Below are positions 7,269 through 22,171 of a DNA stretch of 28,796 nucleotides, in pieces. The stretch spans positions 1 to 28,796 of the IMG/VR virus record IMGVR_UViG_3300020283_000019; one strand, written 5' to 3'. Source of the DNA: a virus. The position numbers and the translations under genes are program-made. Within the stretch, counting starts at the first letter, position 1. Every line of letters begins with the position of its first letter. The notes beneath the pieces are model-generated. The model saw only the letters and a program-made list of their open reading frames with translations. It was not told the DNA's origin and made no database searches.

Positions 7269-7841
7269 TTAATCCTTTTTAATAGTTGCTTTAGTACCTA
7301 TATAGATACCAAATGGTTCTGATGGAATGTCCTTCCCCGTAGTAAGTTGTTCTTTTACGAACGCTTTTAACGTACTAGGATGAACGCTTTGTTTTATTTG
7401 TGGGTCTAGTCCACGGGTTTTAAGAGCTTCTACGGTCTGATCAACCGCTTCACTTTCTTCACGATTAAATTTAACTAAAACTTCGTTTTTAATTAAACCT
7501 TCGTGTCCGTTATCTATCAACCACCTATACGCTACCTCTTGATTAGCTTTAGAAATATGAGCACTATAAAACTCTCCAACGGATATTTTTTCACCCGTGC
7601 TAAGAGTAATCTCATTTAGACCTGCTGCTGCCATAGCGTCAGGTAGCTCTTGTTCTGAAGTTAATCTAAGTTCTTCTTTTTTAGCTTTTACATCTAGTTC
7701 TAGCTGTTCTAGTTCTTTAGCTAGTTGTAGCTGTTTATTGGCTAAAACAGAAACGGTAGATAACTCGCTATCGGAAACTTCGTTATTCCATTCCTGGACG
7801 CCGTCTTCCCCAACAAGTTCTTCGAACGTAGGTTTAGTCAT
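7269..7841 (-). CDS. Conserved phage protein with N-terminal coiled coil
   Basis: This 190-residue protein of unknown function has two visible parts. Residues 28-65 form a heptad-rich segment (LANKQLQLAKELEQLELD, then KAKKEEL) that should be a coiled coil. The C-terminal 100 residues carry AYRWLIDNGHEGLIKNEV, a charged helix, and QSVHPSTLKAFVKEQL followed by GIYIGTKATIK. I recall this C-terminal block from many phages, always near replication genes. It starts inside the end of the upstream gene (8-nt overlap) and is almost contiguous with the next one, so it belongs to the replication operon. Confidence 0.55.
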   Translation of the reverse strand: MTKPTFEELVGEDGVQEWNNEVSDSELSTVSVLANKQLQLAKELEQLELDVKAKKEELRLTSEQELPDAMAAAGLNEITLSTGEKISVGEFYSAHISKANQEVAYRWLIDNGHEGLIKNEVLVKFNREESEAVDQTVEALKTRGLDPQIKQSVHPSTLKAFVKEQLTTGKDIPSEPFGIYIGTKATIKKD

Positions 7842-8160
7842 CTAACTCTCCTTTCTGATGTAGGTCGATTTCAACAGGATAATAAATACCCTCTTGTCTA
7901 TCCCATTTAAGAATATTAAATCTTCCTCGATTAAAATACGCAGCGATTGAACACGCCACACCTATTGCCGCAGGATCACCAATCAGAAGTAAATAATCTT
8001 CTGTTTTATAATCTTGTAAGATTTTTTTCATCCTACGTACCGAAGGAGAAGCACTTAACATGATTTGAGTATTAGAAGGTAATAGGACTTCGAAGTCGCC
8101 ATACTGCCGAGCAGAGGCGATATTTCGTCCTGGAACTTCTTGAACAACATATACTGTCAT
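7834..8160 (-). CDS. Small conserved phage protein, first gene of the replication operon
   Basis: This 108-residue protein of unknown function reads as a compact alpha/beta fold: MTVYVVQEVPGRNIASA, a strand-like FEVLLPSN, SPSVRRMKKILQDY as a helix, and DYLLLIGDPAAIGVACSIAA. The LIGDPAAIGVA stretch recalls a nucleotide-binding loop but lacks a GxxxxGK motif. The ATG has a strong ribosome site (AGAAAGGAGAAAC) and a promoter lies 30-58 nt upstream, so it is likely the leading gene of the operon that runs down to position 1. Confidence 0.55.
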   Translation of the reverse strand: MTVYVVQEVPGRNIASARQYGDFEVLLPSNTQIMLSASPSVRRMKKILQDYKTEDYLLLIGDPAAIGVACSIAAYFNRGRFNILKWDRQEGIYYPVEIDLHQKGELDD

Positions 8161-8189
8161 GTTTCTCCTTTCTAATTTCTAGTAATTAA

Positions 8190-8218
8190 ATAATATATAT
8201 CAGTAACGACAAAGTAAA
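8190..8218 (-). promoter_or_regulatory. Candidate sigma70-like promoter of the replication operon
   Basis: The minus strand reads TTTACT (8218-8213), a 17-nt spacer and TATTAT (8195-8190), 30 nt before the ATG at 8160. The -10 matches the consensus at five of six bases and the spacing is ideal. The -35 sits inside CTTTACTTTG, shared exactly with the promoter before the methyltransferase gene. Confidence 0.55.
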
Positions 8219-8345
8219 GTTATTACGGATATTATGTTTTTAAAAATAAAAATTTACTAAACAAAATAATAAAAAGCTACTAATATCGTTAATAAACTAA
8301 TATTGATTTTAAATTTTTACCGTTATAAAAGGATTCGTCAATATT

Positions 8346-8361
8346 ACTTTTACGTAAAAGT
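8346..8361. promoter_or_regulatory. Perfect 16-bp palindrome, candidate operator
   Basis: ACTTTTACGTAAAAGT equals its own reverse complement. It lies in the divergent intergenic region, about 30 nt before the putative -35 of the plus-strand helicase gene and about 130 nt from the minus-strand promoter. The arms resemble the CTTTACTTT arms near 2855. Binding of a regulator is inference. Confidence 0.4.
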
Positions 8362-8390
8362 TATTAGAGGGCATGAGGAATCTATTAGTT

Positions 8391-8420
8391 TTGGATTATA
8401 TTTTTTATAAATTGTAATAT
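8391..8420 (+). promoter_or_regulatory. Weak candidate promoter for the SNF2 helicase gene
   Basis: TTGGAT (8391-8396), an 18-nt spacer and TAATAT (8415-8420) make a plausible but weak promoter 28 nt before the ATG. A perfect TATAAT at 8420-8425 is an alternative -10 without a matching -35. In DNA this AT-rich such matches arise by chance. Confidence 0.3.
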
Positions 8421-8448
8421 ATAATCAAGTTTAGAAATTAGAAAGAAC

Positions 8449-9891
8449 ATGCAATATAAATTTAAAACGGAGCCGTACGAGCACCAACTAGAAGCGTTAA
8501 AACGTTCTTGGAATAAAAAAGAATACGCGTATTTTATGGAAATGGGTACGGGTAAATCGAAAGTATTAATCGATAATATTTCTATGCTTTATGATAAAGG
8601 CGGTATCAATGCCGCAGTTATCGTAGCTCCAAAAGGTGTGTACCGTAATTGGTCAGAAAAAGAAATACCGACACACATGCCTGAACACGTGTTAAAACAA
8701 ATAGCAGTATGGAACCCTGCTCCGACTAAAGCACAAAAGAAAACTCTTACTGATTTATTTTTGCCTAGCGATGATTTAAAAATATTAATCGTAAACGTTG
8801 AAGCGTTTAGTACTAAAAAAGGTGTAACTTTTGTAGAAAAATTTATTTTAAATCATAACTGTTTAATCGCTGTAGATGAGTCTACTACTATAAAAAACCC
8901 TAAAGCTCAACGAACTAAAAATCTTTTAAAACTAGCCGTAAATACAAAGTACCGTAGAATCTTAACTGGTTTTCCTGTTACGCAATCACCATTAGATTTA
9001 TATAGTCAAAGTGCTTTTTTATCAGACCATTTATTAGGGTATACGTCTTTTTATTCTTTTCAAAATCGTTACGCTCAACTTATTAATAGAAATATGGGGG
9101 CTAGGACATTTAGACAAGTAGTCGGTTATCAAAACTTAGAAGAACTAACTACTAAAGTAAATGGGTTTTCTTACAGAGTTTTGAAAAAAGAATGTTTAGA
9201 TTTACCTGCTAAAGTTTACCAACGTAGGGAAGTAGAACTAACCCCTGAACAAAAGAAAGTTTATAAAGAATTAAAAGATTATGCGATAGCTGAACTAGAA
9301 TCGAATGAACTTGTTAGCGTTACTTCTATTTTGACACAGATATTAAGATTACATCAAGTAGTTTGTGGTTTCGTTAAACACGATCAAGGTGAAGAAGTAG
9401 AAATAAAAAATAATCGTTTAGACGCTCTTATTGACGTATTAGCAGAAACTCAAGGCAAAACTATTATTTGGGCTAACTATCAATACGACATTAAAAGAAT
9501 ATTAAAAACGTTACAAGAATTTGTAGGAACAGAAGCGGTGGCTACTTACTACGGAGAAACACCTGATGAAGAACGTCAACAAATAATTAATCGTTTTCAA
9601 AACCCTGACTCTAAACTACAGTATTTAATTAGTAATGTACAAACGGGCGGTTATGGTATTACTTTAACTGCTGCAAGTAATGTTATTTATTACAGCAACA
9701 ACTATGATTTAGAAAAACGCTTACAATCTGAAGATCGTGCTCATCGTATAGGACAAGAAAATAAAGTAACGTATATTGATTTAGTTGCTAAAGACACAGT
9801 TGACGAAAAAATCGTAAAAGCGTTACGTAATAAATTAAATCTTGCTCAAGAAGTTTTAGGTGATGAAAAATGGAAAGATTGGATTACTTAA
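8449..9891 (+). CDS. SNF2-family DNA helicase/translocase
   Basis: This ATP-driven dsDNA translocase probably serves replication, recombination or protein clearance from phage DNA. In 480 residues it has the compact phage SNF2 layout: EPYEHQLEAL (Q-like motif), Walker A MGTGKSK near 32-38, Walker B variant VDEST near 142-148, LTGFPVTQSP (motif III), then a C-terminal RecA lobe with TIIWANYQYDI, SNVQTGGYGITLTAAS (motif V) and QSEDRAHRIGQ (motif VI). It is the only plus-strand gene, divergent from the replication operon and convergent with the virion operon, overlapping the latter by 8 nt at the 3' ends. Its leader lacks a good Shine-Dalgarno (AGAAAGAACATG), which predicts modest translation. 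Confidence 0.9.
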   Translation: MQYKFKTEPYEHQLEALKRSWNKKEYAYFMEMGTGKSKVLIDNISMLYDKGGINAAVIVAPKGVYRNWSEKEIPTHMPEHVLKQIAVWNPAPTKAQKKTLTDLFLPSDDLKILIVNVEAFSTKKGVTFVEKFILNHNCLIAVDESTTIKNPKAQRTKNLLKLAVNTKYRRILTGFPVTQSPLDLYSQSAFLSDHLLGYTSFYSFQNRYAQLINRNMGARTFRQVVGYQNLEELTTKVNGFSYRVLKKECLDLPAKVYQRREVELTPEQKKVYKELKDYAIAELESNELVSVTSILTQILRLHQVVCGFVKHDQGEEVEIKNNRLDALIDVLAETQGKTIIWANYQYDIKRILKTLQEFVGTEAVATYYGETPDEERQQIINRFQNPDSKLQYLISNVQTGGYGITLTAASNVIYYSNNYDLEKRLQSEDRAHRIGQENKVTYIDLVAKDTVDEKIVKALRNKLNLAQEVLGDEKWKDWIT

Positions 9892-19254: not shown

Positions 19255-19283
19255 ATTATACTTCATACTGTATATATTTTTAA
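19255..19283 (-). promoter_or_regulatory. Candidate promoter before the cupin and virion genes
   Basis: A perfect TATAAT (19260-19255) lies 17 nt after a TTAAAA -35 (19283-19278) on the minus strand. The -35 is inside the 3' end of the cyclase gene, and the ATG of the cupin-like gene is 76 nt downstream. The 84-nt gap 19179-19262 shows no convincing terminator hairpin. Confidence 0.4.
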
Positions 19284-21020
19284 AGGTTTTTCTTTGCCTT
19301 TTACTTTTATAGGTTTTAATGGTTTTAACTGATAACCACACCTACTTTCCGTATTTTCACCTATTAAAATATCTACCCCCGCGTCTTTTGTGCCTGATTC
19401 TAATCTAGCTGCAGTATTTACCGCGTCACCGATAGCGGTATAATCAAACCGTGAAGAAGAACCCATATTACCGATTACTGCTTCTCCTGTGTTTATTCCT
19501 ATGCCTATGGCTACTGCAGGAAGTCCTTCCGCTTGGAGTTCTGTATTAAGTTCAGCCATGTTTTGCCAAATATCTTTAGCACAATCTACCGCTATTTGTT
19601 CATGATGTAGTACGTCTAAAGGAGCATTAAATATAGCCATCATAGCGTCACCTATGTATTTATCAACCATACCACCGTGTTTTTGTACTGCTGTTTGTTG
19701 AGCAGTAAGAGCTTTATTCATAATATAAGTTACTTCTTCTGGGGTTACTGCTTCTGATAAAGCAGTAAAACCTCGTACATCAGTAAATAAAAAAGTAGCG
19801 TACCTTTTTTCACCACCTAATTTTAATAAATTAGGATTCTTTTGTAGTTGTTTTACTTGTCTAGGGTCTAAGTAATGTTCGAATTGTTTTTTAATTTCTA
19901 AACGTAATTTGTATTGTTCACGGAAACGTAAGTAAAAAGCGATTGCTCCTGTTATAAATTCACTAATTAAAGTCCACGTTGTATCTATTAATAATCCTTG
20001 TTGTATAGCATAATATCCTCCGATAGCGGTGCTAGACATAATAGCACTAAAACAAAGAACCCCTGCAGTAACGCCTAAGTTGCTTAACACAACCCAAACT
20101 AAAAGCAGGGATATAACTAATATTAAAACTTCAACGGCTAAACTGTAGTCGGGGATAAATGGACTATTTTCTACCAATATTGATTCTGCTAGTGCTGCTT
20201 GTACCTTGTGTGGTTCAAGTAATCCAACTGGGGTAGCTAACTGTGGCATTACGCCCTCAGCAGTAACTCCTACAAAAACAAATTTATTTTGTACGGCTAA
20301 CTCTTGCATATTAGTTTCTGGAGTATCTACCCAACTAACCCACTTACGTCCTAATCCGTCCGTTTTAACAGCAGGTAAACCTTTTACCCGTACTTCTTCT
20401 ATACCGTTCGTATTAGTCTTAATAACGTACGTATTAGCCCCTGTTAGGGCTTTTAGTACTTCGGTACCGAAAGCGGGTAACCACCCGTTAGGCGTCTTAT
20501 ATAGAAGCGGTATGCGTCTAACTAAATTATCTACGTCTACGGGAGCAGTAGCTATACCTTCATTTGCTTCTAATTCAGGTATATTTCTTACCGTGCCTTG
20601 AGCTAAATAACCACCGTTACCCTCTCCCATAATAACGGTGCCTACCGTATCTGGGTATTTACCATTAGCGTTTTCGAATAAAGCTAATACCGAAGGAGCA
20701 TAACTAAGAGCTATTTTAAAATTACCGTCGCCACCAAAACGGTCTTTATGTGGAAAGCCAATAACCCAACCAACACCTAAAGCTCCTCGGTTTAACAATT
20801 CTATTTGTAATTCTGCTAAACGTTGTCTAGGAAAAGGATAACCACCTTCATTATTAACATCTTCTTCAGTAATATTTAAGATAACAAAATTACCAGAAGG
20901 TTCAGGAGTCTTTACAAAAGTATCAAAAGTTTTTAATTTTAATATTTCTTGTGGAGCTAAACTAAAAATTAACGGTAAACTTAACACCGTTATTATTACA
21001 ATAATTTTTAAATACTTCAC
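19263..21020 (-). CDS. Membrane-bound CHASE2-domain class III adenylate cyclase
   Basis: The predicted reaction is ATP to cAMP and pyrophosphate in the cytoplasm, controlled by a periplasmic sensor. The 585 residues contain a transmembrane helix (4-20), a CHASE2-type periplasmic domain (about 25-290), three transmembrane helices between about 294 and 365, and a class III cyclase domain (about 405-585). Catalytic residues are complete: metal-binding D414 (FTDVRGFT) and D458 (KYIGDAMMAIF), adenine-selecting K454 and D526 (FDYTAIGD), and transition-state N535 and R539 (VNTAARLE). The K/D pair predicts ATP, not GTP. Its start overlaps the FecR gene by ATGA, so the two are probably co-translated. 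FecR-domain genes beside CHASE2 cyclases occur in bacteria, so the pair was probably acquired together. A full-length, intact cyclase in a phage is unusual. Confidence 0.9.
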   Translation of the reverse strand: MKYLKIIVIITVLSLPLIFSLAPQEILKLKTFDTFVKTPEPSGNFVILNITEEDVNNEGGYPFPRQRLAELQIELLNRGALGVGWVIGFPHKDRFGGDGNFKIALSYAPSVLALFENANGKYPDTVGTVIMGEGNGGYLAQGTVRNIPELEANEGIATAPVDVDNLVRRIPLLYKTPNGWLPAFGTEVLKALTGANTYVIKTNTNGIEEVRVKGLPAVKTDGLGRKWVSWVDTPETNMQELAVQNKFVFVGVTAEGVMPQLATPVGLLEPHKVQAALAESILVENSPFIPDYSLAVEVLILVISLLLVWVVLSNLGVTAGVLCFSAIMSSTAIGGYYAIQQGLLIDTTWTLISEFITGAIAFYLRFREQYKLRLEIKKQFEHYLDPRQVKQLQKNPNLLKLGGEKRYATFLFTDVRGFTALSEAVTPEEVTYIMNKALTAQQTAVQKHGGMVDKYIGDAMMAIFNAPLDVLHHEQIAVDCAKDIWQNMAELNTELQAEGLPAVAIGIGINTGEAVIGNMGSSSRFDYTAIGDAVNTAARLESGTKDAGVDILIGENTESRCGYQLKPLKPIKVKGKEKPLKIYTV

Positions 21021-22171
21021 CCTGAACCTTGTCTAATATTTATTGTAGAATCACTACCACCGTTTACTTTAATTTCATTCATCACGCCGTCTTGTTCTAA
21101 AATTACAGTGTAGCTATTGTCGCTATCTATATTTAATACTGCACCTTGTCCTACAGTTCTATTTAAACTTATTTGTGTTCCAGAAACTACTGTTGTTATC
21201 TGAGTTTTAGTATCTTGACCAATGTTAGTGCCTCGAATAGTAGAAGAAATAGCTGATTGATCAAGCTGATCTTCGTCTGCTAAACTGTCTAGTTCATTTA
21301 AAATATTTAATAAATCTTCTAAAAAATTTACATTTAACGCATCGTAATCTAATTCAGTAAAATCTAACTGTTCTTCTTCTTTTAAGTTTTCTTCTGCTAA
21401 ATAATCAAAATCTAATTCATTAAAATCTAAAATAGGGTCTTTTATTTCTTGTGTTTCCTCTTCTTCTGTTTTTATTACTTTTTTAGGCGGTGTAACAATT
21501 AACATATTATCAATAAAATCTAATGACAAATCTAATAATACAGGAGGACTAGGCGTTGCTTCTAAAGTTGTGGTAGTAGTGGCTTGATATGCTTGGTTTA
21601 AAATTACCTCACCCATAGCCGTACTAACTACTATCTCTCCAGACGGGTTACCAAATTCATCAGGTAATAAAATAAATAAACTTTCACCTGTGTCGGGTTC
21701 TACTGTAATAGTAAAATCTGTTCCTCTAATCGCTACCGTAGCTGAGTCCGTACGAATAGTCATATTTTCTTTTGGAATACTACTAAATTTTGCAGTTACG
21801 AAACGAGCAGTGCCTTTAGCAAAAGATAACGCTAACTTACTTTTTGTTGGGTTAGGGTCGTAGATATATTCGTCAATAATTAAAGTGGAGTGTTCTGTTA
21901 GTTTAACTTTACTATCGTCAGCAAAACGTAAACCTAATCTACCTTGTTCAGTTTTAGCTTCATCGTTAGATTGTAAATTAAAATCAACTACTGCTTTATA
22001 ATCTTTATCACGGCTTATTTGTCCGTAACCTGAGACTTCTTCTACAGAGCCGATGTTAAGGGCAACTGGTTGCTGTGCCTTGATCGTTTTGGATAATACA
22101 GAAAGTACCATTAGAACCATTAGAAATGACACGTAACCAGTCGTTATCGAGTGTTGACGCCTGTGTAACAT
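21017..22171 (-). CDS. Secreted FecR-domain protein with curlin-like C-terminal repeats
   Basis: This 384-residue protein has a signal peptide (residues 1-33: HRR, hydrophobic GYVSFLMVLMVLSVL, cleavage near KAQ). A FecR domain spans about 38-195, with GYGQISRDKDYKAV, ADDSKVKLTEHSTLIIDEY and VAIRGTDFTI. An acidic linker (235-303) holds two related units, LDFNELDFDYLAEENL and LDFTELDYDALNVNFL. The C-terminal region (308-384) has curlin-type spacing, for example VILEQDGVMNEIKV and STINIRQGSG. The start lies 116 nt inside the curlin-like gene. An in-frame TAA directly before the ATG rules out a longer N-terminus, and an AGGAGG sits 14 nt upstream. It may sense or anchor the curlin-like protein in the periplasm and pass a signal to the CHASE2 cyclase. 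The domain calls are firm; the role is inference. Confidence 0.8.
   Translation of the reverse strand: MLHRRQHSITTGYVSFLMVLMVLSVLSKTIKAQQPVALNIGSVEEVSGYGQISRDKDYKAVVDFNLQSNDEAKTEQGRLGLRFADDSKVKLTEHSTLIIDEYIYDPNPTKSKLALSFAKGTARFVTAKFSSIPKENMTIRTDSATVAIRGTDFTITVEPDTGESLFILLPDEFGNPSGEIVVSTAMGEVILNQAYQATTTTTLEATPSPPVLLDLSLDFIDNMLIVTPPKKVIKTEEEETQEIKDPILDFNELDFDYLAEENLKEEEQLDFTELDYDALNVNFLEDLLNILNELDSLADEDQLDQSAISSTIRGTNIGQDTKTQITTVVSGTQISLNRTVGQGAVLNIDSDNSYTVILEQDGVMNEIKVNGGSDSTINIRQGSG

Follow-up and report, generated by a model that had tools for sequence, protein, structure and literature searches.

Why should two genes that point away from each other carry the same leader, written in opposite directions? 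The question is raised by a linear-ended virus record from IMG/VR, 28,796 bases long, the whole of which is referred to here as the window. The two divergent neighbours are a gp32-like gene on the minus strand (7834-8160, with its ATG at 8158-8160), which encodes a protein of 108 amino acids matching PF23992 (E 6e-27), and an SNF2-family helicase gene on the plus strand (8449-9891), whose product of 480 amino acids matches PF00176 (E 1e-20), PF00271 (E 2.5e-15) and phrog_62, DNA helicase. PF23992 is named after phage Pam3, and the gp32-like product has no assigned function. The SNF2 helicase gene is the sole plus-strand gene among those judged real, all others lying on the minus strand. Beyond the gp32-like gene are genes resembling gp33 and gp34 of Pam3, followed by primase-like, 2OG-Fe(II) oxygenase-like and UvrD-like helicase genes. 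Elsewhere on the minus strand, positions 19263-21020 encode a 585-residue protein that combines a CHASE2 domain with a class III adenylate/guanylate cyclase catalytic domain; it has relatives in four of the six group A relatives fetched nearly whole and in neither 023Pt_psg01 nor HTVC027P, and also in Pelagibacter phage HTVC008M and Methylophilales phages Melnitz (33% and 30% identity). The adjoining gene (21017-22171, minus strand), which is present in the same four group A relatives, encodes a FecR-domain protein with a weak SPP1-Dit-like end under the Pfam cut-off.

The shared leader is TAGAAATTAGAAAG, 14 nt that are 100% identical in two inverted copies, one ahead of gp32 (8168-8181, minus strand) and one ahead of SNF2 (8432-8445, plus strand). 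An earlier note on this DNA had described an identical inverted leader at both genes, and its letters and coordinates are correct. Reading both leaders also confirms its remark that GAGA is found in the minus copy and not in the plus copy: the former runs TAGAAATTAGAAAG-GAGA-AACATG, the latter TAGAAATTAGAAAG-AACATG. The SNF2-side copy can be divided into AGAAA-TT-AGAAA-G and has no GG, while the gp32 leader matches AGAAAGGAGAAA (8162-8173, minus strand), which includes the extended Shine-Dalgarno sequence AGAAAGGAG. The record holds no further exact copy of TAGAAATTAGAAAG, and loose matches (three mismatches or fewer) are not enriched, with 12 found and 13.3 expected; among viral contigs, at least 120 stretches contain the exact 14-mer. 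When pairs of 30-nt leaders were simulated under a Markov model of the intergenic region, a shared word of 14 nt or longer arose in 14 of 200,000 trials, and the gp32/SNF2 pair ranks first among the 300 pairs that can be formed from 25 window leaders. The second pair, gp32 and the gene at 1963-2814, has 13 nt in common because the stretch is a common ribosome-binding word here.

Conservation was followed through 81 sequences, the window plus 80 relatives retrieved with the SNF2 protein as query, of which eight were dropped because they were cut or had no gp32 or SNF2 start. The 73 sequences with both starts comprise 61 distinct intergenic regions, window included; two of the 61 (L076 and L077, with SNF2 66-67% identical) share their contigs with two rows of group B, discussed below. 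The motif AGAAATNAGAAAG is kept ahead of SNF2 in 61/61 and ahead of gp32 in 57/61, and much of the region between the two motifs varies in its letters and in its length (249-434 nt). Mirrored 13-mer copies, with at most one mismatch each, occur in all 20 long relatives, and each record has 0-4 other one-mismatch matches. The T at position 6 of the first box is invariant in the 61 SNF2 leaders. The next position, N, has a different favourite on each side, namely T in 55, A in 4 and C in 2 SNF2 leaders, and A in 41, T in 11 and C in 5 gp32 leaders; together with the conservation of AGAAATNAGAAAG, this argues against both chance and a recent inverted copy. The motif is separated from the start codon by 3-14 nt in the SNF2 leaders and by 7-11 nt in the gp32 leaders, where this spacer begins with GAG in 57/57. 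Since the favourites at position 7 differ, the identity ends at the 14-mer and the spacers are dissimilar, the 4-nt difference singled out by the earlier note, correct as to its letters, is more plausibly a matter of two unrelated spacers than of a single deletion.

Both leaders lie close to promoter-like sequences, recognized by eye. For gp32 this is TTTACT-N17-TATTAT (8190-8218, minus strand), with a putative transcription start, and for SNF2 a region at 8391-8425 (plus strand) that contains TTGGAT (8391-8396), TAATAT (8415-8420) and TATAAT (8420-8425). The SNF2 motif stays at a more constant spacing from the -10-like box (in 46/61, 6-7 nt) than from the start codon (3-14 nt): TATAAT is 7 nt from AGAAAT in 45/61 leaders, 6 nt in one and 10 nt in three, and an exact TATAAT is absent in 12. 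The 46 leaders with TATAAT 6-7 nt ahead suggest that the SNF2 box may mark the 5′ end of the transcript, in which case transcription would start at or just before the first box. In the relative L325 (about 8.9-18.7 kb), boxes of the form TTTACTTT[G/C], accompanied by a TATAAT-like box that lies 17 nt past TTTACT, can be seen by eye upstream of several early-region genes, and these resemble the gp32 promoter-like site of the window. In L314 (1-73) and the 023Pt-like loci of group C, the divergent promoters seem by eye to overlap: the TGTCAA that follows each -10-like box is TTGACA, a -35 for the opposite promoter, in reverse complement.

The divergent intergenic region has repeats of its own. 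TATTAG/CTAATA copies are scattered over 8280-8388 of the window (e.g. 8280-8285, 8297-8302, 8362-8367 and 8383-8388); in 60 related intergenic regions TATTAG occurs 159 times on the plus strand and 143 times on the minus strand, against a shuffle mean of 22 (plus), and 52 of the 103 gaps between successive plus copies are 19-22 bp. The arrangement resembles an array for DNA binding and may be an origin of replication or a regulatory site; the GC skew of one relative tracks gene direction and is uninformative on an origin. A perfect 16-bp palindrome, ACTTTTACGTAAAAGT, lies at 8346-8361 and has two letters changed in the close relatives L005 and L006. The leader box was considered as a copy of the TATTAG repeat, and this was rejected on two grounds: position 7 on the gp32 side is A in 41/57, which leaves no ATTAG, and 023Pt_psg01 keeps the boxes with only about 70 bp between the annotated genes.

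Is the leader word confined to this pair of genes? Eight genomes were scanned (six group A relatives, 023Pt_psg01 and HTVC027P), a start being taken as an ATG, GTG or TTG in the first quarter of an open reading frame of at least 60 codons and located between 2 nt inside the word and 15 nt after it. Two AGAAA boxes on a 7-nt pitch, AGAAA-N2-AGAAA, occur at 72 sites, 61 of them directly ahead of a start. Four control words of the same composition and gap give 5-19 sites, 0-2 of them before a start, and when the gap between the AGAAA boxes is set to 1, 3, 4 or 5 nt the counts are 6-27 sites, with 0-7 before a start. Across 21 records the backward pattern has 35 sites and the word itself 215 (totals summed over the per-genome table), nearly all on one strand, with one or two on the opposite strand that include the SNF2 copy. 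The letters between the boxes are GG at 46 of the 61 sites before a start and GA at three, the other 12 being the non-GG boxes of gp32 (6) and SNF2 (6); gp32 leaders are counted twice in each of the six relatives (overlapping boxes). Outside the gp32 and SNF2 leaders, GG is present at 40/43 sites (46 less the 6 of gp32) and GA at three, so the tandem boxes at other genes are scarcely separable from a Shine-Dalgarno sequence with an A-rich spacer.

With GG between the boxes, the word contains AGAAAGGAG, the full complement of 16S tails ending CCUCCUUUCU. In the six relatives AGAAAGGAG precedes a start at 53/58 sites and serves 5-11 genes of each, including gp32, as their strong ribosome-binding site; it is absent from 023Pt_psg01 and HTVC027P. 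The earlier note proposed a search for the 14-mer ahead of other genes, and what such a search yields is not the exact 14-mer, found nowhere else in the record, but the related AGAAAGGAGAAA, which every one of the six relatives has ahead of 5-10 genes, including gp32. In G005, a relative of 62 kb, AGAAAGGAG occurs ten times, on a single strand, each time just before a gene and each time followed by AAA. Around AAGGAG, an AGA upstream and an AAA downstream tend to occur together in G005 (10/0 versus 3/11, p 1.5e-4), and p ranges from 1.5e-4 to 0.03 in six genomes that were each tested singly and are related to one another. The SNF2 leader is the same word with TT (55), TA (4) or TC (2) in place of GG in the 61 relatives. 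A narrow literature search returned nothing on AGAAAGGAG as a Shine-Dalgarno sequence in this phage group, and the main text of the HTVC027P transcription paper has 0 occurrences of 'promoter', 'motif' and 'helicase' (PMC12753301).

The consequence of GG for ribosome binding can be estimated from the 16S 3′ tail. The SAR11 16S 3′ end is ACCTCCTTTCTAAGGA in 60/80 loci, the other 20 having no ACCTCCT within reach, and pairing energies were computed against the tail GGAUUACCUCCUUUCU, which may not be the host's. Against this tail the window's gp32 leader pairs at -13.3 kcal/mol and its SNF2 leader at -5.5. Random 25-mers of the window have a mean of -4.3 kcal/mol and a 1% limit of -12.8, which gp32 passes, indicating strong predicted pairing, and SNF2 does not. 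Mean pairing in the 61 relatives is -13.2 kcal/mol for gp32 and -6.4 for SNF2, and in 59/61 the SNF2 leader pairs less strongly than the gp32 leader of the same relative. In the predicted fold of the SNF2 leader the motif is unstructured. The claim that one side is strongly and the other weakly translated thus gains support in this lineage from predicted pairing, and the SNF2 helicase is probably translated weakly. A second claim, that the Shine-Dalgarno sequence has been removed from SNF2, holds for GGAG and fails for a Shine-Dalgarno sequence of any kind, since UAGAAAG counts as one for ribosomes with a UUUCU tail (as listed in PMC5427494). The host presumably has a 16S tail of the UUUCU type. 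AAGGAG precedes a start at 1/171 sites in 592 kb of SAR11 loci, which suggests that SAR11 may not be the host.

Sister groups show how far the asymmetry extends. Their leaders form a set of 160 distinct rows; group D was left out because its gp32 assignments looked wrong. The start codon was not re-found in 1/21 (B), 16/52 (C) and 19/51 (D) leaders, and for these the start given by the alignment was taken. In group B (SNF2 65-72% identical) the SNF2 leader carries AGAAAGGA, which disproves the idea that SNF2 is devoid of a Shine-Dalgarno core in all relatives; 20/21 rows match AGAA[C/T/A]TTAGAAAGGA, one as an AGAG variant, and L078 is without the motif. Group B gp32 leaders read AAAGGAGAAATTAGAA-ATG in 14/20. 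In the 023Pt-like group C, AGAANTWAGAA abuts the gp32 start codon in 36/51 leaders (N being A in 10, C in 11, G in 11 and T in 4) and 15/51 have no box; the SNF2 leaders read AGAAAG[A/T]AGAAA in 34/53, two boxes 7 nt apart without GG, a pattern that missed 19. SNF2 pairs more weakly than gp32 in 0/20 of group B (means -9.9 and -9.1 kcal/mol; start uncertain in 1/21) and in 18/51 of group C (means -3.9 and -3.4, near background; start uncertain in 16/52). The strong/weak difference is therefore confined to the lineage of the window, where it holds in 59/61: both leaders are moderate in group B and both are weak in group C.

We lean towards an explanation in which both leaders are versions of one graded extended Shine-Dalgarno word, put before several early and replication genes, and consider it reasonably probable. 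The word itself, its placement before starts, its conservation and its pairing energies are results of computation. The translation-initiation word of the lineage would consist of a pair of AGAAA boxes with a pitch of 7 nt, a short way ahead of the start codon. With GG between the boxes, AGAAAGGAG would pair over 9 nt with a 16S 3′ tail ending CCUCCUUUCU and act as a strong extended Shine-Dalgarno sequence, and gp32 would have such a site plus one extra upstream box. With TT, TA or TC, as in SNF2, just (U)AGAAAG would remain to pair with the extreme 16S tail, so initiation should be much weaker, and the energy difference would set protein output. The mirror image would follow from the divergence of the two genes and from nothing else.

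Precedents for this explanation come from Bacillus subtilis, whose 16S tail is the same as that of SAR11 (PMC5427494). AGAAAGGAG and UAGAAAG are listed as extended or species-specific Shine-Dalgarno sites for 16S tails ending CCUCCUUUCU, and UAGAAAG is the sole listed site of phi29 gene 6, which is described as efficiently translated in B. subtilis and not in E. coli (PMC5427494; for extended Shine-Dalgarno sequences and phage early genes see also PMC13009471). The phage sequences match in AGAAAGGAG and UAGAAAG, and the tail is shared with the 60/80 SAR11 loci. They differ in having a second conserved AGAAA box 7 nt away, which adds little pairing, and in that SNF2 retains both boxes without GG. 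Pairing with 16S leaves the invariant first box of SNF2 (AGAAAT) and its T at position 6 unaccounted for; position 5, which would pair with 16S, is variable in the SNF2 leaders of group B and the gp32 leaders of group C, and the AAA that follows GGAG takes no part in 16S pairing either. Further points against the explanation are the direct contact of the group C gp32 boxes with the start codon, the steadier spacing of the SNF2 motif from the -10-like box than from the start codon, the likeness of the tandem boxes at other genes to a plain Shine-Dalgarno sequence, the rarity of AAGGAG before starts in the SAR11 loci and the absence of AGAAAGGAG from 023Pt_psg01 and HTVC027P. The main part of the arrangement is thus ordinary, an extended Shine-Dalgarno sequence that is strong for gp32 and weak for SNF2; what is unusual is a conserved tandem box that survives without its GG core.

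The shift of the box pair relative to the Shine-Dalgarno sequence, the retention of T6 and the freedom of position 5, the reverse of selection by 16S, leave room for a specific reader. AGAA-N-T-W-AGAAA could be an RNA operator through which a phage or host RNA-binding protein represses or activates gp32, SNF2 and perhaps other early genes, like RegA in T4; we think this unlikely. The register of the boxes fits it, as they lie before the Shine-Dalgarno sequence in group A gp32, after it in group B and without one in group C, and so does the strand bias of the sites in the 21 records. T4 RegA operators overlap or directly precede AUG and have no structure, and those of T4 and RB69 are likewise short A-rich elements common to many early genes (PMC3014915), but their sequences, AAAAUUGUUAUGUAA and AAUAAUAAUAAnA, are unlike the phage word (PMC3014915). 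RegA (PF01818) and RegB (PF10715) are matched in 0/21 records, with the control genomes equally silent, and a Pfam scan of 20 early-region G005 proteins gave no RNA-binding candidate. The T4 RegB/S1 site GG*AGRAYARAA, with GGAG and an A-rich 3′ flank in early-gene leaders, is a resemblance only to AGAAAGGAGAAA (PMC3014915); the window's SNF2 leader has no GGAG and so would escape action at sites of this kind. Against an RNA operator, too, 15/51 group C gp32 leaders have no box, and an extended Shine-Dalgarno sequence accounts equally well for most sites. In its fuller form, the proposal would make the motif the target of an undescribed phage early-gene regulator, with SNF2 controlled on top of weak basal translation and gp32 having both the target and a strong site; it is unlikely to the same degree.

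Near-identical RNA elements in two divergent early leaders are familiar from lambda nutL/nutR and HK022 putL/putR. The phage leaders differ from these in that no boxA/boxB or stem-loops were recognized in them, the SNF2 motif being unstructured, and in that related words precede other genes too.

It is rather improbable that AGAAATNAGAAAG is instead a DNA operator, placed where transcription begins at each of two divergent promoters, by which one phage transcription factor would control both. The near-constant distance to TATAAT in 46/61 SNF2 leaders, beside a variable distance to the start codon, is in keeping with such an operator, as are the mirrored 13-mers of the 20 long relatives and their few other matches, the extra units of 7 nt on the gp32 side (L033, L041) and 6 nt on the SNF2 side (L015), and a weak Mor-like (HTH) protein in 16/21 records, four of them above the cut-off. 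However, related words at other genes lie in the sense direction and tens of nucleotides from the nearest promoter-like box, and the two divergent promoters have different -35 and -10 letters (both by eye); a promoter-only reading was set aside on the same two grounds. An RHH_1 protein (PF01402) was found in 0/21 records, which may be fragments, while the control matched in 8/14. The Pfam scan of the 20 early-region G005 proteins for a regulator returned the weak Mor match and nothing more. L325 15012-15377 encodes a weak Mor-type (HTH) protein, adjoining the DNA polymerase gene in G005, that is a candidate phage transcription regulator.

That one of the genes acquired its leader from its neighbour through an inversion-duplication, as the earlier note suggested on the strength of 14 identical inverted nucleotides, is very improbable: the identity stops at the ends of the 14-mer with no shared flanks, the favourites at position 7 differ between the sides, the gp32 side is arranged differently in groups B and C, and AGAAAGGAGAAA precedes 5-10 genes per relative. 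Coincidence in AT-rich DNA, which the same note would have accepted had relatives shown unrelated leaders, has a negligible chance of being right despite the lack of enrichment of loose matches in the window and the at least 120 viral contig stretches, given the conservation in 61/61 SNF2 and 57/61 gp32 leaders and the 14/200,000 simulated trials.

If the preferred reading, that of a graded extended Shine-Dalgarno word, is true, the output of early proteins would be graded by a difference of two letters, GG or not, within a fixed leader word, in a marine phage group known here mostly from metagenomes. The first box, which 16S pairing does not explain, raises the question of a shared leader code for translational control outside the T4 group.
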